From the NCBI GenBank assembly GCA_945872355.1, contig CAMBZU010000026.1, positions 1 through 39,441 on the forward strand: 39,441 nucleotides of DNA, in the 5' to 3' direction. The notes beneath the pieces are model-generated. The model had not been told where the DNA came from, did not search any database, and was given only the letters and a program-made list of their open reading frames with translations. The translations under genes and the position numbers were made by a program. This DNA comes from Chitinophaga pinensis (GTDB taxonomy: Bacteria > Bacteroidota > Bacteroidia > UBA4408). The number at the start of each line of letters is the position of its first letter. The first letter of the stretch is position 1. Shown one piece after another: positions 28,170 to 38,315 of the stretch.

Positions 28170-28694
28170 ATGAAAATAATTAAAACTCTTACAATAGCCA
28201 TTTTCTTCCTTGGTCAAACAATAATATCAAATGCACAATCAATGCAAGTTAATTTTGTTGATCAAACCCACACCCAATACAACTTGAGTGACATTGTTAG
28301 AATTAACTACCAGAATGACAGTATTAAATTGACTTTGGTTGATGAAAGCACTTACATCTGGAGTTTTATCTCTGCACGATCTTTTCAATTTTTTCATGGG
28401 AATGTTAGTATGGATAAAATCTTAAATGAAATCAACAGCATAAATATTCAAATCTTTCCTAATCCAACTAATGATATGATTTATGTGACTTTTAAATCAA
28501 ATAAAACTGAATTTATTGAAATTGACATTTTTGATATGCAAGGAAGGTATGTCATGAGCGCATTTAACGGACCATTTGATGAACGATCGAATCCAATCAT
28601 TATACATACCAATAACTTAAGAAATGGCCAATACCAGTTTACCTTTAAAACAAGTAAATTCTTAAAAACAAAAAGCCTAATTATAAATCATTAA
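28170..28694 (+). CDS. Small exported protein with T9SS C-terminal sorting domain
   Basis: 174 residues with a signal peptide (about 1-22, ending SNAQ). Residues about 25-80 form a short beta-rich domain (MQVNFVDQTHTQYNLSDIVRINY). The rest is a T9SS type A tail: IQIFPNPTNDMIYVTF, IDIFDMQGRYVM, LRNGQYQFTFKTSKFLKTKSLIIN. Cargo this small carries hardly any domain besides the export signal. The same N-terminal theme (a quantity compared with a line) reappears at the start of the next gene (VRMNLFTQSGYVWQFPTDSIDSLNF), 12 bp further, so the two are probably cotranscribed and related. Function unknown. Confidence 0.8.
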   Translation: MKIIKTLTIAIFFLGQTIISNAQSMQVNFVDQTHTQYNLSDIVRINYQNDSIKLTLVDESTYIWSFISARSFQFFHGNVSMDKILNEINSINIQIFPNPTNDMIYVTFKSNKTEFIEIDIFDMQGRYVMSAFNGPFDERSNPIIIHTNNLRNGQYQFTFKTSKFLKTKSLIINH

Positions 28695-28706
28695 AAAAAG
28701 ATACAA

Positions 28707-29552
28707 ATGAAATTTGCAATAATTTGCCTAATGCCATTGTTTTTTTTAAAGACAAATGCACAAGTAAGAATGAACTTATTTACCCAATCTGGTTATGTAT
28801 GGCAGTTTCCAACTGATAGTATTGATAGCTTGAATTTTTCGCTTGATACAAACAATAGTCTATTAAATATTCATAAACATAATGGAAATATAGCTCAATT
28901 TCCTTTAAATCTTATTGATAGTATAAATCATAGATTTGGTTTTTACAGTGTTGGAAATGGTATTTCCGATTCTGAAGGAAACCATTATAATTCAATAATA
29001 TTAAATAATGGACAAGAATGGACGACTGAAAACTTAAGAACAAGCACCTATTCGAATGGAGATAGCATTTTAAATTTAATTGATTCAATGTCATGGGAAA
29101 ACTCAACGGTTGGATTATGGTGCTATTATAATAATGATGTTCAATTTAATATTCCATATGGCAAATTATATAATTGGTACACTGCAGCAGATGTGCGCAA
29201 TGCATGTCCTATTGGATGGCACGTTGCAACTAATTGGGACTGGCAACTTTTGACAAATTATTTGGGAACAATAAATCTTGGAGGTTTAATGAAATCGATA
29301 GATTCAACTTATTGGCAAAGCCCAAATTTAAATGCAACTAATGAGAGTGGTTTTTCTGGATTACCTGGTGGCACTCGATCTGGCACAAGCAACAATTTTT
29401 ATTATTTAGGGCAAACTGGAATTTGGTGGTCATCAACACAAGCTACCACTCTAACTGGTTGGTATAGACTACTCAGTTTCAATTCAAACAATTTACATGG
29501 TAGTTGTTTCAATAAGAACTTGGGGTTATCAATTCGTTGCGTAAAAGATTAA
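28707..29552 (+). CDS. FISUMP-domain exported protein
   Basis: 281 residues with a signal peptide (about 1-19). After a short beta-rich N-terminal part, residues about 95-280 match the Fibrobacter succinogenes major paralogous (FISUMP) domain: QEWTTENLRTSTYSNGDSI, YGKLYNWYTAADVRNACPIGWHVATNWDWQLL, FSGLPGGTRSG, GIWWSSTQ and the end LGLSIRCVKD. The family is common in secreted or surface proteins of Fibrobacter and Bacteroidota; its molecular role is not known, and it resembles the formylglycine-enzyme/C-type lectin fold family. There is no sorting tail, unlike its neighbour. Confidence 0.88.
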   Translation: MKFAIICLMPLFFLKTNAQVRMNLFTQSGYVWQFPTDSIDSLNFSLDTNNSLLNIHKHNGNIAQFPLNLIDSINHRFGFYSVGNGISDSEGNHYNSIILNNGQEWTTENLRTSTYSNGDSILNLIDSMSWENSTVGLWCYYNNDVQFNIPYGKLYNWYTAADVRNACPIGWHVATNWDWQLLTNYLGTINLGGLMKSIDSTYWQSPNLNATNESGFSGLPGGTRSGTSNNFYYLGQTGIWWSSTQATTLTGWYRLLSFNSNNLHGSCFNKNLGLSIRCVKD

Positions 29553-31271: not shown

Positions 31272-31883
31272 CTATTTTCTAAAATGTATTTGACAACCTA
31301 TTGATTTAGTTTCTGCAATTTGGGGGCTATTGCCTTTTAACTGTGCTTCTACTGCCAAGGATAAATAAGGATTTTGAACTTTATCTGGTTCGGCGCCATT
31401 ATCATCAATAGCACCATTATACTTCACAACCCATTTATTATTTTCTTTCCAAATTAGATAAGCATGTGGCGTTTTATCGGCTTTAAATTGTTTAGCTACT
31501 TTTTGGCTGCCATCATACAAATAAGGGAAATTAAATTTTTCATTTTGCGCCTTTTCAACCATATTTAAATAGCTGTCTGTTTCATATTGAATTGTATCTG
31601 TTGAACTAATTGCGATAAGAGCTACACCTATTGCCGCATATTTTTCATTAAGTGCGTTCAACCTTTCTGGATATAATTTTGCAAATGGACAATGATTACA
31701 GGTAAATACTATCATAAACCCTTTGGCATTTGGATATTCTTTTAAAGAAACAAATTTACCATCAGTGTTTTTCAAACTAAAATCATTCACCGTTTTCTCT
31801 ACTGTTTTCTTAGGTAAAAAATTGGTAAAACTTGTAATTAATAAGAATGAAAATAAGCTTGTGATTCCTAAAAATAATTTCAT
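31272..31883 (-). CDS. Exported peroxiredoxin/thioredoxin-like protein with CNHC motif
   Basis: 203 residues, signal peptide about 1-22. The AhpC/TSA-type thioredoxin fold starts at VNDFSLKNTDGKFVSL (32-47); the motif TCNHCPF places cysteines at 62 and 65, a CxxC with Asn-His between. DKTPHAYLIW supplies the cis-proline loop. It is usually annotated as a redoxin/thioredoxin-family protein; it might act as a periplasmic thiol reductase or peroxidase. ATG overlaps the stop of the upstream TlpA-like gene by 4 bp, so they form one operon with the protein at 32364. Partner unknown. Confidence 0.88.
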   Translation of the reverse strand: MKLFLGITSLFSFLLITSFTNFLPKKTVEKTVNDFSLKNTDGKFVSLKEYPNAKGFMIVFTCNHCPFAKLYPERLNALNEKYAAIGVALIAISSTDTIQYETDSYLNMVEKAQNEKFNFPYLYDGSQKVAKQFKADKTPHAYLIWKENNKWVVKYNGAIDDNGAEPDKVQNPYLSLAVEAQLKGNSPQIAETKSIGCQIHFRK

Positions 31884-32374
31884 GGCAAATATTTTTTTAA
31901 TGTTGAATTGGAAAGGCTATTGGATATAAATTTATTGTATTTTTTTTGTTGATTCACAATTAATGTTGCAGGTATGGCACCGCTCCATTCTTTATTAATT
32001 TTATTCATCCAATTGTTTGGATCCGATTCATTCAATAGATAAATTTTTTGTGTAAGTTTTAAATTATTCACCAACGGAACTAAACTTTGTTGATAGGTAT
32101 TTACCATATCTAAACTTACATAAATCACCTTTACTTTTTGATTGCTTTGCTCTTTCGCAAACAATTCAAAATCTGGCAATTCTTTGATACACGGGGCACA
32201 CCATGAAGCAAAAAAATTGATATAATAAGTTGTATCGCTCTTATTTAAAAAAACTTGTTGCAATTTATTGAAATCAACAATTTCAATATTACTTTGTGCG
32301 TGGGCAATATCAGCGCAACTGAATATAGCTGCGCTGAAGAACATGATATATTTATTAAACAATTTACTCAACAA
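31880..32374 (-). CDS. TlpA-like periplasmic thioredoxin
   Basis: 164 residues with a signal sequence (about 1-26, ending AHAQ) and a thioredoxin fold: YYINFFASWCAPCIKELPDF with Cys59 and Cys62. Family members keep cysteines of exported proteins reduced, for example during cytochrome c or copper-centre assembly. The long form begins at TTG (32374 or 32371) and overlaps the preceding gene's end by up to 11 bp; it supplies a basic n-region (LSKLFNKYI). The ATG at 32344 gives a signal without basic residues, so the TTG start is preferred. The sheet-terminal cis-Pro is in GAIPATLIV. Confidence 0.88.
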   Translation of the reverse strand: MLSKLFNKYIMFFSAAIFSCADIAHAQSNIEIVDFNKLQQVFLNKSDTTYYINFFASWCAPCIKELPDFELFAKEQSNQKVKVIYVSLDMVNTYQQSLVPLVNNLKLTQKIYLLNESDPNNWMNKINKEWSGAIPATLIVNQQKKYNKFISNSLSNSTLKKYLP

Positions 32375-33248
32375 CTATTTTCTTTACACTTGTTTGGCCT
32401 GTTTGTGCTTCAATAATTTTACAATAATAAATTCCGGCATTCAAAGTTTCAATAGCAATGCCATTCATCAAATTTTGATTTTGAACCAGCATAACCAATT
32501 CGCCTAAAGCATTATAAATTGCAACATTTGCAATTATTGAACTTGCATTTGAAAAATATAATTTTTCGTTGGCAGGATTTGGATAAAGATTTATTTCACT
32601 TTGATTATTCGACTTTATTCCACTGGTTGTGTTGGTAACAAAAGCCAAATCATCCACCAATAACACAGAGCCTAATATGGCAGCAGCAGGAGGAATTAGG
32701 TTGGTATTTGACAACTCAATCACAGCCGAATCTGGTATTGCATTCGAGTTATAACTAATAGGTAAACTAAAACGCGTGTAATTATTAGCTGCAGCCCCAG
32801 TGAGTATAGCGCTTCCAATATTTTCGCGCACATTATTTGTAATATCCCATCTTGAAATATCTACTTTTATGATAAAACTATCATTTAAATTTGGTGCGTA
32901 TTTAAACCAACCGGTAATACTATCGGGACGATCTGTAAAAGCATAACCTTTTACACCCGGATTGCCAGGCCCCATGCCTTGCGTGCCTGTATAGCAAATA
33001 CCTGGCAGTGTATCTAAAGTTTGTAATTGAGGATTTGTGAAAGTATCAGTAACCAATTTAATGGCAAAGGCACCACTATGCATATCGGTACTTTTACTTA
33101 CACTTGGTGGCCCACCCCATCCATTGGCTGACTCAAAAGGTCCAACCACACTCCAGCTTTCAAAACCAGCATTGGGTATATTTTGGGCATTTACTTGAAG
33201 CTTTAGCAGCGATAAAAGCATTAAAGAAGTAAGGAGATTTTTTGTCAT
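32364..33248 (-). CDS. Secreted beta-sandwich protein (PCMD/carbohydrate-binding-like) with T9SS tail
   Basis: 294 residues. Signal peptide about 1-21 (ending VNAQ); then IPNAGFESWSVVGPFESANGW, a start seen in PCMD and other galactose-binding-like domains, with DRPDSITGWFKY and VLLVDDLAFV as closing strands (residues about 22-205). T9SS sorting tail from about 220: NLYPNPANEKLYFSNA, IYNALGELVML, LNAGIYYCKII. It would be exported to the surface and bind glycans or glycoconjugates (inference). It has a TATATTTG box of its own 24 bp upstream and leads the three-gene unit with the two thioredoxin-fold proteins. Confidence 0.85.
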   Translation of the reverse strand: MTKNLLTSLMLLSLLKLQVNAQNIPNAGFESWSVVGPFESANGWGGPPSVSKSTDMHSGAFAIKLVTDTFTNPQLQTLDTLPGICYTGTQGMGPGNPGVKGYAFTDRPDSITGWFKYAPNLNDSFIIKVDISRWDITNNVRENIGSAILTGAAANNYTRFSLPISYNSNAIPDSAVIELSNTNLIPPAAAILGSVLLVDDLAFVTNTTSGIKSNNQSEINLYPNPANEKLYFSNASSIIANVAIYNALGELVMLVQNQNLMNGIAIETLNAGIYYCKIIEAQTGQTSVKKIVVE

Positions 33249-33272
33249 TTTAAATTTATTTTTTATTTAATG

Positions 33273-33280
33273 CAAATATA
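33273..33280 (-). promoter_or_regulatory. Putative -7 element of the T9SS/TlpA/redoxin unit
   Basis: TATATTTG on the minus strand (33280-33273), followed by C as in the extended consensus TAnnTTTGC, 24 bp before the ATG at 33248. Confidence 0.5.
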
Positions 33281-33354
33281 AGGAGACTAAAACTGTAAAT
33301 ATAATTAAGCGATAAAATGCTTTACAATAGCGGTAAATATGCTTTAATGCAAAA

Positions 33355-33390
33355 AAAATCGCTGATTTCTATCAAGAAATCAGCGATTTT
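33355..33390 (-). terminator. Terminator of the YHYH gene (bidirectional hairpin)
   Basis: AAAATCGCTGATTTCT (33355-33370) pairs perfectly over 16 bp with AGAAATCAGCGATTTT (33375-33390), with a four-base loop. It is 20 bp after the stop of the YHYH gene (33410) on the minus strand, with A- and T-runs either side. Confidence 0.85.
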
Positions 33391-33409
33391 TCACATCCAT
33401 TAATTTTAA

Positions 33410-34786
33410 TTATTTCACAATCGTAATTTTTTTAGTGATGTTTTTTTCATCAGCAATTACTTTAACTAAATATTGACCTTGATACATGGCTCTTGTATCA
33501 AAATAAGCGATGGTGCTACCTTGATAGATGGTTGTTGTTTGAATCAACTTTCCAAGCATGTCATACAATTCAACATTTACATTTTTTTTGCTTAAATTGC
33601 TTACTTGCACAGCAATAAATTCAGCTGCTGGATTGGGATAAACATTTAAATTTAGTTCTTGATTAGCGATTGATTTGATGCTTGTTGCAGCAGGTGTATA
33701 AGTAGTAACTGTTTCTGTGATACTGGTTACTTTAGCTGCAGTTTTTACGCCATAAAATGTAGGCCCAACAACATAGGGATATGCAGAATGCCAGTTGGCA
33801 TCTACAGTTGCAAAATAACAATAAATACCATTAGGATATTCGGGTGTTACGCAAAATCTCCCGTTGTGCTCATCTAAATAATCAGGTGTAGCAGCTGATG
33901 TAGTATTGTATTGATAATCTTCTCTAAAATAACCTAAAGGATAAGTTGTACTAATAGCTGGCCCTGAAGTAACAGCAGCTCCTGTAGGGCTTGTTGTGCG
34001 TGTAGTTATATTGCGTAATGAATAACTTGATTTAATTCTTGTAATTCCTCCAGTGCCATCGGCATTTTTGTATCCATAGGCGCCATAAATTGGGAAGCCA
34101 TCATAAGCAAATCCAATAAGCGGTGAGTGCACTATGCTATCAATAGCATACATACCATCGGCAGGATATAAATCACAAACATTAGAAATAGTAACCAAAT
34201 CTAAATTAAAGGCACTTGGATTTTGATGATGATGATAATTACCCATGGCAGGATGAGCCTTAGAACAATCAAATCCTGGTCTTTCAGCAGGAATAGCATC
34301 ACGATTCCAATCGTTTACAGCTCCCATTCCACCTGGACATGGAGGATTTCCCGGACCACCGCAAAGTGCATTGGTTGTAGCATTCCATGCAACTCCATCA
34401 CGATAATCAAATAAAGCTACGCCATTAATAAATACACCAATGTTTCCTCCTGTTGTGGCCGTTATTGTTCCTGTATTTTGAACCGGATTTAAAGGAAACT
34501 TAAATATAGCATTTTGATCTGTAGCTAAAGAAGGATTACCATCTAAAAATGGCCCAGTTACATAAGTTGGAATACCATGTGTATTCACATAAACCCAATT
34601 GGTTGAATATTGTACTGTTTGACAATTTGCAATAACTGCGTCAACAACTGGTGTTGAATTACCACTTACATAATGACGGCCCGTAATAGTATTATTTTGT
34701 AACCAACTTAAAATGGCTGGATTAGTTTGTGCCATAGCACATGAGCCACTTAGTATAATTGCTAAAAGTGATGTTTTTAATTTCAT
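33410..34786 (-). CDS. YHYH-domain secreted protein with T9SS tail
   Basis: 458 residues; signal peptide about 1-20 (SGSCAMAQ). The region 115-340 is a YHYH domain: NIGVFINGVALFDYRDG, the His cluster MGNYHHHQNP (about 181-190), SPLIGFAYDGFPIYGAYGY, and HNGRFCVTPEYPNGIYCYFATVD. A T9SS sorting tail begins about residue 380 (NVYPNPAAEFIAV, LYDMLGKLIQ). The family name comes from its conserved histidine-tyrosine residues, which look made for metal binding; no established function is known to me. It has its own -7 box and terminator, next to multicopper oxidase and sulfatase genes. Confidence 0.93.
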   Translation of the reverse strand: MKLKTSLLAIILSGSCAMAQTNPAILSWLQNNTITGRHYVSGNSTPVVDAVIANCQTVQYSTNWVYVNTHGIPTYVTGPFLDGNPSLATDQNAIFKFPLNPVQNTGTITATTGGNIGVFINGVALFDYRDGVAWNATTNALCGGPGNPPCPGGMGAVNDWNRDAIPAERPGFDCSKAHPAMGNYHHHQNPSAFNLDLVTISNVCDLYPADGMYAIDSIVHSPLIGFAYDGFPIYGAYGYKNADGTGGITRIKSSYSLRNITTRTTSPTGAAVTSGPAISTTYPLGYFREDYQYNTTSAATPDYLDEHNGRFCVTPEYPNGIYCYFATVDANWHSAYPYVVGPTFYGVKTAAKVTSITETVTTYTPAATSIKSIANQELNLNVYPNPAAEFIAVQVSNLSKKNVNVELYDMLGKLIQTTTIYQGSTIAYFDTRAMYQGQYLVKVIADEKNITKKITIVK

Positions 34787-34806
34787 GTAATATTTATTTA
34801 AAGTTT

Positions 34807-34814
34807 CAAATATA
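34807..34814 (-). promoter_or_regulatory. Putative -7 element of the YHYH gene
   Basis: TATATTTG on the minus strand (34814-34807), 20 bp before the ATG at 34786, in the 33-bp gap after the sulfatase gene. It suggests separate transcription from the upstream pair. Confidence 0.5.
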
Positions 34815-34819
34815 AGTTA

Positions 34820-36409
34820 TTATTCTTTTTTAATTAATTTGATAGTTGGTTCATTCAATTGATTTGTTTTTAAGAAATACATACCCGTGGAAAGCTTACT
34901 AAAATCTTGATTTGAAATATCATTCCCTTCATAAATTATAGTACCAAATACATTGTAAAGCACAGTATGCTTATTATCGTTTTGATCATTAAAATTAATA
35001 GTTTTTGTGAATGGATTAGGATAAACTTGGTGTAGATTTGATAAGCGGTTAGGCGCTCCAATAGCCAAATTACAATAACTTCCATTGCCGACTAAATTAG
35101 TCATTTCTAAACATAAATAATTATAGTTAATTAAATCAACAGAGCTTAAAGTTCCTAATAATAGGTTGTTTAATTCTAATGGATCAGCAGTAAGATTATA
35201 AAATTGCTCTTCACCATAATCAAATTTCATCAATTTGTAATCCACGTTTCTCATCGTTTTTCCATCGGCAGAATCTGTGGTGAGTTTAAAAATTTCGCTG
35301 AATGCCCAAGGTCTAATAGTGCTGTTTGTGTTCTTTATTATTGGCAATAAACTATGCGTATCAACAGGTTTATTAGCAGGAATTTGTGCACTCCAATTAT
35401 AATATGCAAAAAGTTCGAGTACAGTAGAAAATATATCAACAGTATTTACTAATGCATCGCTGCTGCGGTTTGGATCCACAACACTGGGTCCTGCAATAAT
35501 CATAGGAACATGAATCCCATATTGATAAATTGTTCCCTTTGCTCTCGACAAATCAGCAGTTTGAGCAGTGCGCTGTGTACTTGCATTATCACCAATAAAT
35601 ATTACATCTGTACTATCCAACTTATTCATCACTTGCAAAGAATCAAACAATCTCCCAATTTCGTGATCCATAGCTTGTATCATAGCTTTAAAATAGGACT
35701 TAGGATTTGTATTAATATCTTGAGTTGTACCAGTTAAATTTGTGAAATTATGCAAGCCTGCTGGCGGCAAATGCAAAGGCTCATGAGGTGCATTAAAAGC
35801 AAGCCATAAAAAAAATGGATCCGATGGATTTAAAGTTTTCAACCAAGTAACAGCGTTATTTACATTCTCAGTTGTGGCATAAGTTGTAACGGTACTTGAA
35901 ACTCCATTGGTGTATTTTGTCCAATTGGTAAAACTTGGCAATTGGCCAATAAAAGGACCTTCAAAATGATCATAGCCCATGTGATTGGGATTTAATAAAT
36001 TGCCTATTGGATTTGCTTGGTGTAAATGCCATTTTCCAATATCTGCTGTATTTATATTTGGATTGAATTCTTTTAACAAACGAGGGATAGTAATCTCTGA
36101 AGTATCCAATTGAAGTGAACCACCCATGCCGCCTACAATACCTCCAACACCTGTTCTAAAACTATATCTCCCTGTTAAAATACCTGATCTTGTTGAAGAA
36201 CATACTGGGTTAGCGGTGGCATTTTTAAAACGGACACCCCTGGCAAGTAAAGCTCTAATATTTGGAACAGCAACCGTATCTAAATAACCTTCATAAAAAG
36301 CAAAAAAATCAGGACTTAAATCATCTGCAATAATAAGCACAACATTGCGCTGTGCCTTAACTGTTAGCCCGGTAATTATTATGCAAAACAGCAAGATTAT
36401 TTTTTTCAT
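34820..36409 (-). CDS. Sulfatase with T9SS tail
   Basis: 529 residues. Signal peptide 1-19 (ending KAQ); sulfatase domain about 20-430: NVVLIIADDLSPD (metal ligands D29, D30), NPVCSSTRSG with Cys70 as the predicted formylglycine residue (C-x-S-x-R), GKWHLH, and TDVIFIGDNAS with the C-terminal metal ligands. The tail from about 460 (VYPNPFTKTINF, LYNVFGTI) sends it to T9SS. It needs an anaerobic or FGE-type maturase, not in the window. Probably removes sulfate from extracellular glycans or other esters. It starts 6 bp after the multicopper oxidase stop, so both are cotranscribed. Confidence 0.95.
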   Translation of the reverse strand: MKKIILLFCIIITGLTVKAQRNVVLIIADDLSPDFFAFYEGYLDTVAVPNIRALLARGVRFKNATANPVCSSTRSGILTGRYSFRTGVGGIVGGMGGSLQLDTSEITIPRLLKEFNPNINTADIGKWHLHQANPIGNLLNPNHMGYDHFEGPFIGQLPSFTNWTKYTNGVSSTVTTYATTENVNNAVTWLKTLNPSDPFFLWLAFNAPHEPLHLPPAGLHNFTNLTGTTQDINTNPKSYFKAMIQAMDHEIGRLFDSLQVMNKLDSTDVIFIGDNASTQRTAQTADLSRAKGTIYQYGIHVPMIIAGPSVVDPNRSSDALVNTVDIFSTVLELFAYYNWSAQIPANKPVDTHSLLPIIKNTNSTIRPWAFSEIFKLTTDSADGKTMRNVDYKLMKFDYGEEQFYNLTADPLELNNLLLGTLSSVDLINYNYLCLEMTNLVGNGSYCNLAIGAPNRLSNLHQVYPNPFTKTINFNDQNDNKHTVLYNVFGTIIYEGNDISNQDFSKLSTGMYFLKTNQLNEPTIKLIKKE

Positions 36410-36414
36410 TTAAT

Positions 36415-38139
36415 TTATTCTTTTATAAATTTCTTGGTAGTTACAGCTTTCGTTTTTTGATCTGTAAACTCTAAAGCATATACGCCAGGGGTTAAGTTAC
36501 TTATATCAATGCCTTGCTGCAATTGTGGTTTTGGCAGCATCAATACAGTTTTACCAAGCACATTAATAATTTTTACATAATAGGCTTGCGTGTTTGGATC
36601 ATCAAATGAAAGATATAATTTACTGTTTGCAGGATTAGGATATAAATTAAATGAAGCCGTTTGATTGTTTGTCTTAACAGCTGTGGCAAAAGGATCAACA
36701 ACAACAAATTGGCCCATCATTCCTTCATCTTCATGCAATGAAATATGACAGTGATACATGAAAGGATGCAGGATATCAGCATAATCTTCAAATTTTGCAA
36801 TAAACTTTACTACCGTATTTGTAGTTCCAGTTCTCCCTGGAATAAATACAACATCTTTCCAACCTGCTTGCGCTGCCACAGGGGCAACACCATTTACTGA
36901 AATGATATTAAATTCTACATCATGTATATGAAATGGATGTCCAAAAATTGAGGAACTTGTAATTTGCCATATTTCAGTATTCCCAATAGGCACTTCATAT
37001 TCATTTTGGTTGATATCAAACAATTGGTGATTTATAATGAAGGCATTAGGCCCTAAAATTACAGGATTTGTAACGCCTGCACTATCACTTAGCGTAAGCA
37101 GTCGAGTTACATTTGCATTGGCTTGATTTAATAACACATTATTGGTTAATGTTGCAGGAATACTTGTAATTGGATTACTTGTTTGCGGCCCAATATTTAC
37201 ATGTAACATTCTAAAATCCTTATGACCTAAATAATTTCCAAAAGGGCCATTTAAAAAATTTTCGCCACCGGCAATAAAGTTCCCTAGTGAAGCGTTAAAG
37301 GCCATTAAATCAACTGAAGTTCCCGATTGCCCACTAAAATCTATTAATATTTCAATACGTTCACCAGCATGCAATAAATACCTGTTAACAGTAACAGGTG
37401 CATTAAGCAATCCGCCATCTGATGTAATCACTGAAAAATTTCTATTATCTCTAAACCCTAAATTGAATGATCTTTCAATGGCAGCATTTAAGATACGAAA
37501 GCGAACAATTTGTGAAGGCACAGTATGCTGAGGACTCAGTGTTCCATTTACTACAGAACTATCACCATAAGGCACAATTGCAAACTGGTTGCCGCTTGTA
37601 AAATCACAATCCGTTAACACCAATGGAATATCATCAATGCCATAGCTTCTTGGCAATGCCAATGCACTTTCAATAGGATCTCTCACAATAATTAAACCTC
37701 CTAAACCTTTGGTAATTTGATCCATTGTCATTTCATGTAAATGTGGATGATACCAGTATGTTGCAGCGTTGTTGGTTACTTTCCAATATGGCTGCCAAAC
37801 AGTGCCTGGAGGTATCATTTGGTGCGGCCCTCCATCCATCACAGCAGGTAAATGAAATCCATGCCAATGAAGAGTTGTAGCATCATTTAGTAAATTTTGC
37901 ACATTCATATGAACGGTATCACCTTGATTAAAAAACAAAGTTGGCCCCCAAAATTTCCCATTGATACCTGCAGTGATTGTTTGATTGCCTGGAATAATTT
38001 GAGAAAAAGTATCTCTCATTGCAAGGTTAAAAGTAGTTCCTGATAAGGTATCAGGTATCCATAAATTATTATAATTTTGAGATTTTGCATTAAAGCCCAG
38101 TGCTAAAAAAAGAATAAAGAGGAGTGCGTTTTTTTTCAT
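36415..38139 (-). CDS. Multicopper oxidase with T9SS tail
   Basis: 574 residues with signal peptide (1-20). Three cupredoxin domains carry all copper ligands: HWHGF (H91, H93), YHPHLHE (H131, H133), HPFHIHDVEF (H401, H404, H406), and HCHISLHEDEGMM (H463, C464, H465, H469, M474), so type 1 and the type 2/3 cluster are complete. The T9SS tail from about 497 (NLYPNPANSKLYL, IINVLGKTVLML) exports it. No Met-rich insert typical of CueO is seen. It could oxidise metals, phenols or other reduced substrates at the surface. It is first in the operon with the sulfatase. The gap 38140-38277 shows no other gene. Confidence 0.95.
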   Translation of the reverse strand: MKKNALLFILFLALGFNAKSQNYNNLWIPDTLSGTTFNLAMRDTFSQIIPGNQTITAGINGKFWGPTLFFNQGDTVHMNVQNLLNDATTLHWHGFHLPAVMDGGPHQMIPPGTVWQPYWKVTNNAATYWYHPHLHEMTMDQITKGLGGLIIVRDPIESALALPRSYGIDDIPLVLTDCDFTSGNQFAIVPYGDSSVVNGTLSPQHTVPSQIVRFRILNAAIERSFNLGFRDNRNFSVITSDGGLLNAPVTVNRYLLHAGERIEILIDFSGQSGTSVDLMAFNASLGNFIAGGENFLNGPFGNYLGHKDFRMLHVNIGPQTSNPITSIPATLTNNVLLNQANANVTRLLTLSDSAGVTNPVILGPNAFIINHQLFDINQNEYEVPIGNTEIWQITSSSIFGHPFHIHDVEFNIISVNGVAPVAAQAGWKDVVFIPGRTGTTNTVVKFIAKFEDYADILHPFMYHCHISLHEDEGMMGQFVVVDPFATAVKTNNQTASFNLYPNPANSKLYLSFDDPNTQAYYVKIINVLGKTVLMLPKPQLQQGIDISNLTPGVYALEFTDQKTKAVTTKKFIKE

Positions 38140-38277
38140 ACTTGTTTATTTATGATGGTAAATATGTTATTAATAAAAGCTAAGAAAATAAAATTAAGGT
38201 AAATAGCTACAATTTGTCGGAGAATTTATGCTGTGCATATCAAAACACTTATAGTCTTTCCTATTTGAATCTTTCCT

Positions 38278-38285
38278 TATATTTG
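38278..38285 (+). promoter_or_regulatory. Putative -7 element of the aminopeptidase gene
   Basis: TATATTTG, a full TAnnTTTG match, 30 bp before the ATG at 38316. The stretch 38140-38315 otherwise holds no gene. Confidence 0.5.
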
Positions 38286-38315
38286 GATGCCTAAATTTAA
38301 GAAAATAAATTCACA

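Follow-up and report, generated by a model that had tools for sequence, protein, structure and literature searches.

A type IX secretion cargo island as a possible fragment of a dispersed copper-handling module in Bacteroidota

The stretch of Chitinophaga pinensis DNA analysed here (the window; 39,441 nucleotides, contig CAMBZU010000026.1 of assembly GCA_945872355.1) carries on its minus strand, at 31272-38139, an island of six genes encoding a multicopper oxidase (MCO), a sulfatase-like protein, a YHYH protein, a PCMD-like protein, a TlpA-like thioredoxin and a redoxin with a CNHC motif. On balance the evidence is evenly poised as to whether this island is a fragment of a dispersed copper-handling module of the Bacteroidota, in which the CNHC redoxin would mature the MCO ahead of its export through the type IX secretion system (T9SS). 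The linkage of these genes is well supported by genome comparison; the mechanism is inferred. What would be new is a dispersed module around MbnP, MbnH and YHYH with an MCO-CNHC redoxin pair, a variant of known copper-handling clusters. The repeated linkage of YHYH to MbnP-MbnH, to SCO1/SenC and to a copper oxidase provides a concrete functional hypothesis for a widespread domain, while the strict MCO-redoxin pair, if true, would offer a way to study how cuproenzymes are loaded before type IX export.

The multicopper oxidase and its redoxin partner

The window belongs to genome G000 (3.4 Mb in 133 contigs, 96.5% complete); below, G-numbers denote genomes, L-numbers fetched loci and C-numbers contigs. 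Families were assigned by Pfam and NCBIfam profiles with curated cut-offs. An earlier note, made from the sequence alone, had proposed six open reading frames (ORFs) for the island, and all six were found there with the named families matched, PCMD weakly:

36415-38139, minus strand: CueO-like three-domain MCO with signal peptide and T9SS type A tail
34820-36409, minus strand: sulfatase-like protein with S1 fold, SGSH_C and T9SS tail; formylglycine motif CSSTR against CxPxR
33410-34786, minus strand: YHYH protein (PF14240) with T9SS tail; H178, H185, H187, D229, D290, D305, N308 and R310 invariant among diverse YHYH members
32364-33248, minus strand: PCMD-like protein (PF13201, weak) with T9SS tail
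31880-32374, minus strand: TlpA-like thioredoxin with WCAPC; starts either at a TTG that overlaps the stop of PCMD or at an in-frame ATG shortly after it
31272-31883, minus strand: CNHC redoxin (AhpC/TSA) with C62-N-H-C65 and C197 invariant; constant partner of the MCO subfamily

The best-supported result is the tie between redoxin and copper oxidase, which the earlier note had proposed and which holds across the class. Across the 295 sampled genomes of Bacteroidia, the MCO subfamily (scores above 770 bits, a threshold picked once the scores had been seen) and the CNHC-redoxin subfamily (at least 266 bits, plus one contig-edge partial at 247) occurred in the identical 13 genomes, contig-edge fragments in G050 and G181 being left out of the count. 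Reading of the neighbourhoods placed the two genes close together in 13/13, with no CNHC redoxin within 15 kb of any of 41 other, lower-scoring MCO genes. The chance of identical genome sets is about 6e-23 if relatedness is ignored, and the MCO and redoxin protein distances agree in part (Mantel r 0.50, p 1e-4, 21 pairs). Full-length YHYH was present in 12 of these 13 genomes against a background of 98/295 (Fisher 1e-5). Elsewhere the most consistent partner of the MCO is the redoxin from the far end of the island, not the adjacent genes.

The MCO, the only one seen in G000, has the Pfam domains Cu-oxidase_3, _2 and _1, and its copper-ligand motifs (HWHG, WxHPHLH, HxFHxHD and HCHxxxHEDxGMM) are invariant across 15 relatives, with the axial Met kept. 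CueO provides both its best profile and its closest relative among solved structures (6evg, 328 bits). Unlike CueO, which is periplasmic, it carries a T9SS tail that would direct it to the surface, it is paired with a redoxin and it scores under the NCBIfam CueO equivalog cut-off; it is classed from its profile scores as a CueO-like MCO, not as CueO. The CNHC redoxin matched PF00578 at 63 bits, gave no match to the SCO1/SenC profile PF02630 and has 2ywi, 3u5r and 2cvb as its nearest solved relatives; it is assigned by profile to the AhpC/TSA group, not to SCO. The arrangement recalls the TlpA/ScoI assembly, in which TlpA reduces ScoI and CoxB ahead of copper insertion (PMC6696091), with a TlpA-like WCxPC protein beside a second thiol protein and a cuproenzyme, but here a CNHC AhpC/TSA redoxin takes the place of SCO and the putative target is the type-1 site of an MCO.

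The four consecutive T9SS cargo proteins described in the earlier note were also borne out, with TIGR04183 above its cut-off in the MCO, sulfatase-like, YHYH and PCMD-like proteins (45, 32, 51 and 49 bits, respectively); the two redoxins of the window have no T9SS tail. The ORFs of G000 include SprA (2647 bits), GldK, GldJ, PorM-like and PorP-like proteins, a gene content indicating that T9SS is present. On current understanding, T9SS exports proteins that have completed their folding in the periplasm, and copper would for this reason be inserted before export.

YHYH proteins and the MbnP-MbnH neighbourhood

The YHYH protein matched PF14240 at 4.4e-57 (193.6 bits against a cut-off of 25). The domain is found in Bacteroidia (YHYH in 113 of the 295 genomes), phages and diatoms, and no tested function for it was found in the literature searched. 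The invariant H178, H185, H187 and D229 fit the metal site of three His and one Asp that has been predicted for the YHYH domains of phages (PMC7824862). The mature domain modelled well from a broad alignment (pLDDT 92.5, pTM 0.91), superseding a poor first model built from an alignment of close relatives alone (pLDDT 60). Foldseek comparison of the model with the PDB gave no match with E below 1 and a second comparison none with Z above 2.5, a null result that does not prove a new fold; the model did match viral YHYH proteins, with which the three His and the Asp are shared. The two differ, the phage domain being a predicted zinc hydrolase of phage tails and the protein here being surface-exported, as judged from its tail, and tied to copper genes. 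A YHYH profile run against PDB sequences matched T9SS tails and chance antibody entries alone.

The neighbourhood survey drew on 80 fetched loci carrying YHYH relatives of 62-80% identity, whose neighbouring ORFs were clustered into families. The earlier note had made lack of co-occurrence in other genomes the refutation of its idea; the island genes recur together in relatives, so that refutation fails. Within the stretches fetched, 22 of the 80 loci held one or more of MCO, sulfatase, TlpA or redoxin, without exception on the same strand as YHYH and in differing orders, as in L040 (sulfatase, MCO, YHYH, TlpA, redoxin), L047 (MCO, sulfatase, YHYH, MCO, TlpA, redoxin) and L075, L096 and L099 (MbnP, MbnH, MCO, YHYH, redoxin). 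In L088 a single strand carries a sigma factor, small ORF, CnrX-like protein, MbnP, MbnH, PCMD, MCO, sulfatase, YHYH and redoxin, that is, everything except TlpA.

That the genes belong together beyond G000 was thus rightly seen in the earlier note, which overlooked the main YHYH partner. The commonest neighbours at the YHYH loci, both absent from the window, are a di-heme enzyme (64 loci) and a 230-residue protein (58 loci). The former is MbnH-like (TIGR04039, 1e-64); the latter is MbnP, matched weakly by TIGR04052, with the G000 copy on C8 scoring 144 bits against a cut-off of 27 for PF20243; a sequence search with the MbnP profile turned up no solved relative. The equivalog cut-offs were missed in relatives L095 and L055 (218.8 against 362.9 bits for TIGR04039 and 34.7 against 140 bits for TIGR04052) and the families are named MbnP/MbnH-like on these scores. 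An MbnH match lay within 6 kb of YHYH at 60 of 106 strong loci, on the same strand in 60/60, and distant YHYH lineages also lie beside MbnP-MbnH, in other gene orders (L162-L164, L169, L188). An ECF-type sigma factor, a small ORF (probable anti-sigma factor) and a Spy/CnrX-like protein often precede MbnP-MbnH; the profile of the last has Spy as its best solved match (3oeo, E 6e-4), and one member gave no credible Pfam match.

The MbnP/MbnH pair (GenProp0940; TIGR04052/TIGR04039) is known from methanobactin and other copper operons. The MbnP proteins beside YHYH relatives keep the invariant WxW, and a pair of the same subfamily lies elsewhere in G000, the pair being absent from the window itself. 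In the literature searched, YHYH, MCO and CNHC redoxin were not described as MbnP/MbnH partners, and no paper joined YHYH with an MCO or, relevantly, with copper; one paper dealing with T9SS and an MCO of Flavobacterium psychrophilum proved unrelated to the cluster. Another near arrangement is that of the DUF2946/CruR copper operons, which combine MbnPH-like, SCO and AhpC/TSA genes (PMC9426467), from which the present clusters differ in having T9SS cargo, YHYH and MCO, with no DUF2946 or TonB receptor identified.

Short YHYH proteins form arrays with MORN-repeat and SCO1/SenC proteins. The three gene contexts, MbnP-MbnH, SCO1/SenC and MCO, point to copper for YHYH by association. Such short arrays were seen in L179, L183, L185, L193 and L194, with SCO1 recognised by Pfam in L179, L185, L193 and L194, the last adding an adjoining sulfatase-like gene of the same family. 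A second, short-type YHYH gene in G000 (L119, C6:38000-52000) lies with Lcl_C, other T9SS cargo and a PCMD fragment about 2 kb from sprA. In L059, L070, L072, L086, L093, L100 and L104 a family of 246-residue proteins, for which kynurenine formamidase was an initial guess, adjoins YHYH on the opposite strand.

In G000 the parts of the module are spread over several contigs, with MbnP next to MbnH on C8 and C37, outside the window. The aminopeptidase gene that stands beside the MCO in the window has YHYH as its immediate neighbour in the congener G168, and likewise in L032, on a contig of the same appearance. The aminopeptidase-MCO and aminopeptidase-YHYH intergenic regions, both AT-rich, align with 77% column identity, and for this reason the MCO and sulfatase genes of G000 can be placed between a shared leader and YHYH, a placement that would reflect either gain in the window lineage or loss in the sister. 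The MCO-redoxin pair and MbnP-MbnH of G168 each lie on a further contig of their own (L138 and L154, respectively). In G224, of the same family, one contig carries sigma factor, CnrX-like protein, MbnP, MbnH and a sulfatase cut by the contig end, and another starts with a T9SS tail that ends some 10 bases upstream of the first YHYH start codon, suggesting that the two contigs may adjoin.

Copper handling and its alternatives

In the copper-handling module as we propose it, the core elsewhere would be an operon of ECF sigma factor, small ORF (probable anti-sigma factor), Spy/CnrX-like periplasmic protein, MbnP, MbnH and YHYH, to which the MCO-CNHC redoxin pair, TlpA, the sulfatase-like protein and PCMD would be optional additions. 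With the help of TlpA where there is one, the periplasmic CNHC redoxin would keep the type-1 copper cysteine of the MCO reduced and may pass copper to it. The MCO would fold and take up copper in the periplasm and T9SS would then export the folded enzyme to the cell surface, where it may act as a CueO-like oxidase on Cu(I) or on an organic or metal substrate. MbnH would make the kynurenine copper site on MbnP, with YHYH as a surface metal-binding partner of the two through its three His and one Asp. That MbnP acquires a kynurenine has reportedly been described, as cited in PMC9426467. In its stronger form, in which the CNHC redoxin would serve specifically to mature MCOs exported by T9SS and YHYH proteins would be an unrecognised class of extracytoplasmic copper proteins, with a fold that Foldseek left unmatched in the PDB, and a third partner of MbnP-MbnH (or, in the short form, of SCO1/SenC), the proposal is offered tentatively and may well be wrong.

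Several points weigh against the proposal. The MCO, placed by profile alone, reaches 364 bits against a CueO equivalog cut-off of 525, and the subfamily threshold was chosen with the scores in view, the next-best MCO, in G047 (726 bits), having no redoxin. Relatedness among the genomes means that the P values overstate their independence. A probable terminator parts the two halves of the island, and sister species have YHYH at the same place without MCO, sulfatase or redoxin. The sulfatase is left unexplained by copper, and the YHYH domain of jumbo phages has been predicted to be a zinc-dependent hydrolase (PMC7824862).

The closest competitor retains copper and gives it another purpose. For detoxification, the MCO would be a surface cuprous oxidase with MbnP and YHYH as copper sinks, induced by excess copper through the ECF sigma factor and CnrX-like sensor. 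The place of CueO as nearest solved relative of the MCO suits this, as do the sigma factor and Spy/CnrX-like protein that head the operon in many relatives, but CueO acts in the periplasm and not at the surface, MbnP-MbnH pairs also occur in methanobactin operons serving copper uptake, and none of the recurrent cluster families was recognised as a copper efflux pump. We regard detoxification as somewhat improbable, falling a little behind the stronger form of the copper-handling proposal.

Less probable again is an exported hydrolase set scavenging sulfate, phosphate or algal polymers, comprising the sulfatase, with PCMD as carbohydrate binder, YHYH as metal hydrolase, the MCO as a lignin- or phenol-type oxidase and the redoxins as general helpers. 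The sulfatase subfamily adjoins MbnH, YHYH or MCO in 8 of its 14 genomes (G000, G224, G118, G287, G068, G271, G264 and G094), L137, L123 and L047 add metallophosphatase-like and Lcl_C T9SS proteins, and carrageenan sulfatases are among the closest solved sulfatases. Against this, the identified cluster genes include no glycoside hydrolase or SusCD pair, the sulfatase occurs in only 14 of the 295 genomes compared with MbnH-YHYH linkage in 60, and both its CSSTR motif and the lack of a recognised maturase in G000 tell against an active sulfatase set. That unrelated T9SS cargo genes lie together by chance, with the redoxins as general thiol chaperones for many exported proteins, would account for the shuffled gene order among genomes, for the terminator and separate promoter-like elements that split the set and for the sister genomes without parts of it. 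This is nevertheless strongly disfavoured, and to us the least credible account, given the shared 13 genomes of MCO and redoxin, close in all and with none at 41 other MCOs, and the repeated same-strand linkage of YHYH and MbnP-MbnH.

Transcription units and remaining island features

Further features of the island region are:

38140-38315, no strand: intergenic region between aminopeptidase P and MCO, aligning with the aminopeptidase-YHYH intergenic region of the close relative
34807-34814, minus strand: TATATTTG element, candidate Bacteroidota -7 box just upstream of YHYH, by consensus match alone
33352-33391, minus strand: hairpin with U-run between the YHYH and PCMD genes, probable intrinsic terminator (-27.3 kcal/mol, z -7.5)
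33273-33280, minus strand: TATATTTG element, candidate Bacteroidota -7 box just upstream of PCMD, by consensus match alone

Because of the hairpin with U-run between YHYH and PCMD and the TATATTTG elements upstream of both, there are probably two transcription units, MCO-sulfatase-YHYH and PCMD-TlpA-redoxin. Both the hairpin and the sister genomes speak against a single operon of all six genes. Words of the TAnnTTTG type occur at chance frequency across the whole window, with no enrichment, and a scan for E. coli consensus promoters was discarded, giving fewer sites than in shuffles. The earlier note's picture of one exported enzyme system in one place does not survive, as the redoxins have no T9SS tail, two units are likely and the MCO-redoxin pair and YHYH are separable. 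Its 4-bp overlap of the TlpA-like and CNHC redoxin genes is there (ATGA at 31880-31883), as is the gene for its glycan-binding-like protein, for which the label is weak (20.6 bits against a PF13201 cut-off of 28). PCMD relatives adjoin YHYH, MCO or yhyh2 in L042/L127, L088, L142 and L119.

The sulfatase-like protein matched Sulfatase PF00884 at 4.8e-38 plus SGSH_C, and the S1 fold and catalytic residues (DD, GKWH, PHxP, DN and K) are present. Its CSSTR, shared with most cluster members, does not match the formylglycine motif CxPxR/CxAxR; other members have CSATR or CTVTR and some CSPTR or CSPAR. In G000 the only PF03781 matches were GldK and GldJ and no anSME scored above cut-off, an absence of recognised maturase that is weakened by the incompleteness of the assembly. 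Because of motif and maturase together, formylglycine maturation is in question and the protein is called sulfatase-like. Drift at motif position +2 was seen in the window, L146, L151, L147, L136 and others, in genomes whose only strong PF03781 matches are frames of GldK/GldJ length, their identity as GldK/GldJ having been checked in G000 alone. G166, with an extra 285-bit PF03781 match, has CSPTR, and exceptions to the pattern exist, for example G118.

Metallophosphatase-like T9SS proteins, often in tandem, lie beside redoxin and second-type YHYH genes in L123, L137, L041, L047 and L049. Elsewhere in the window, at 28170-29552 on the plus strand, a T9SS-tail protein (DUF3244-like) and a Fib_succ_major protein are encoded in tandem.

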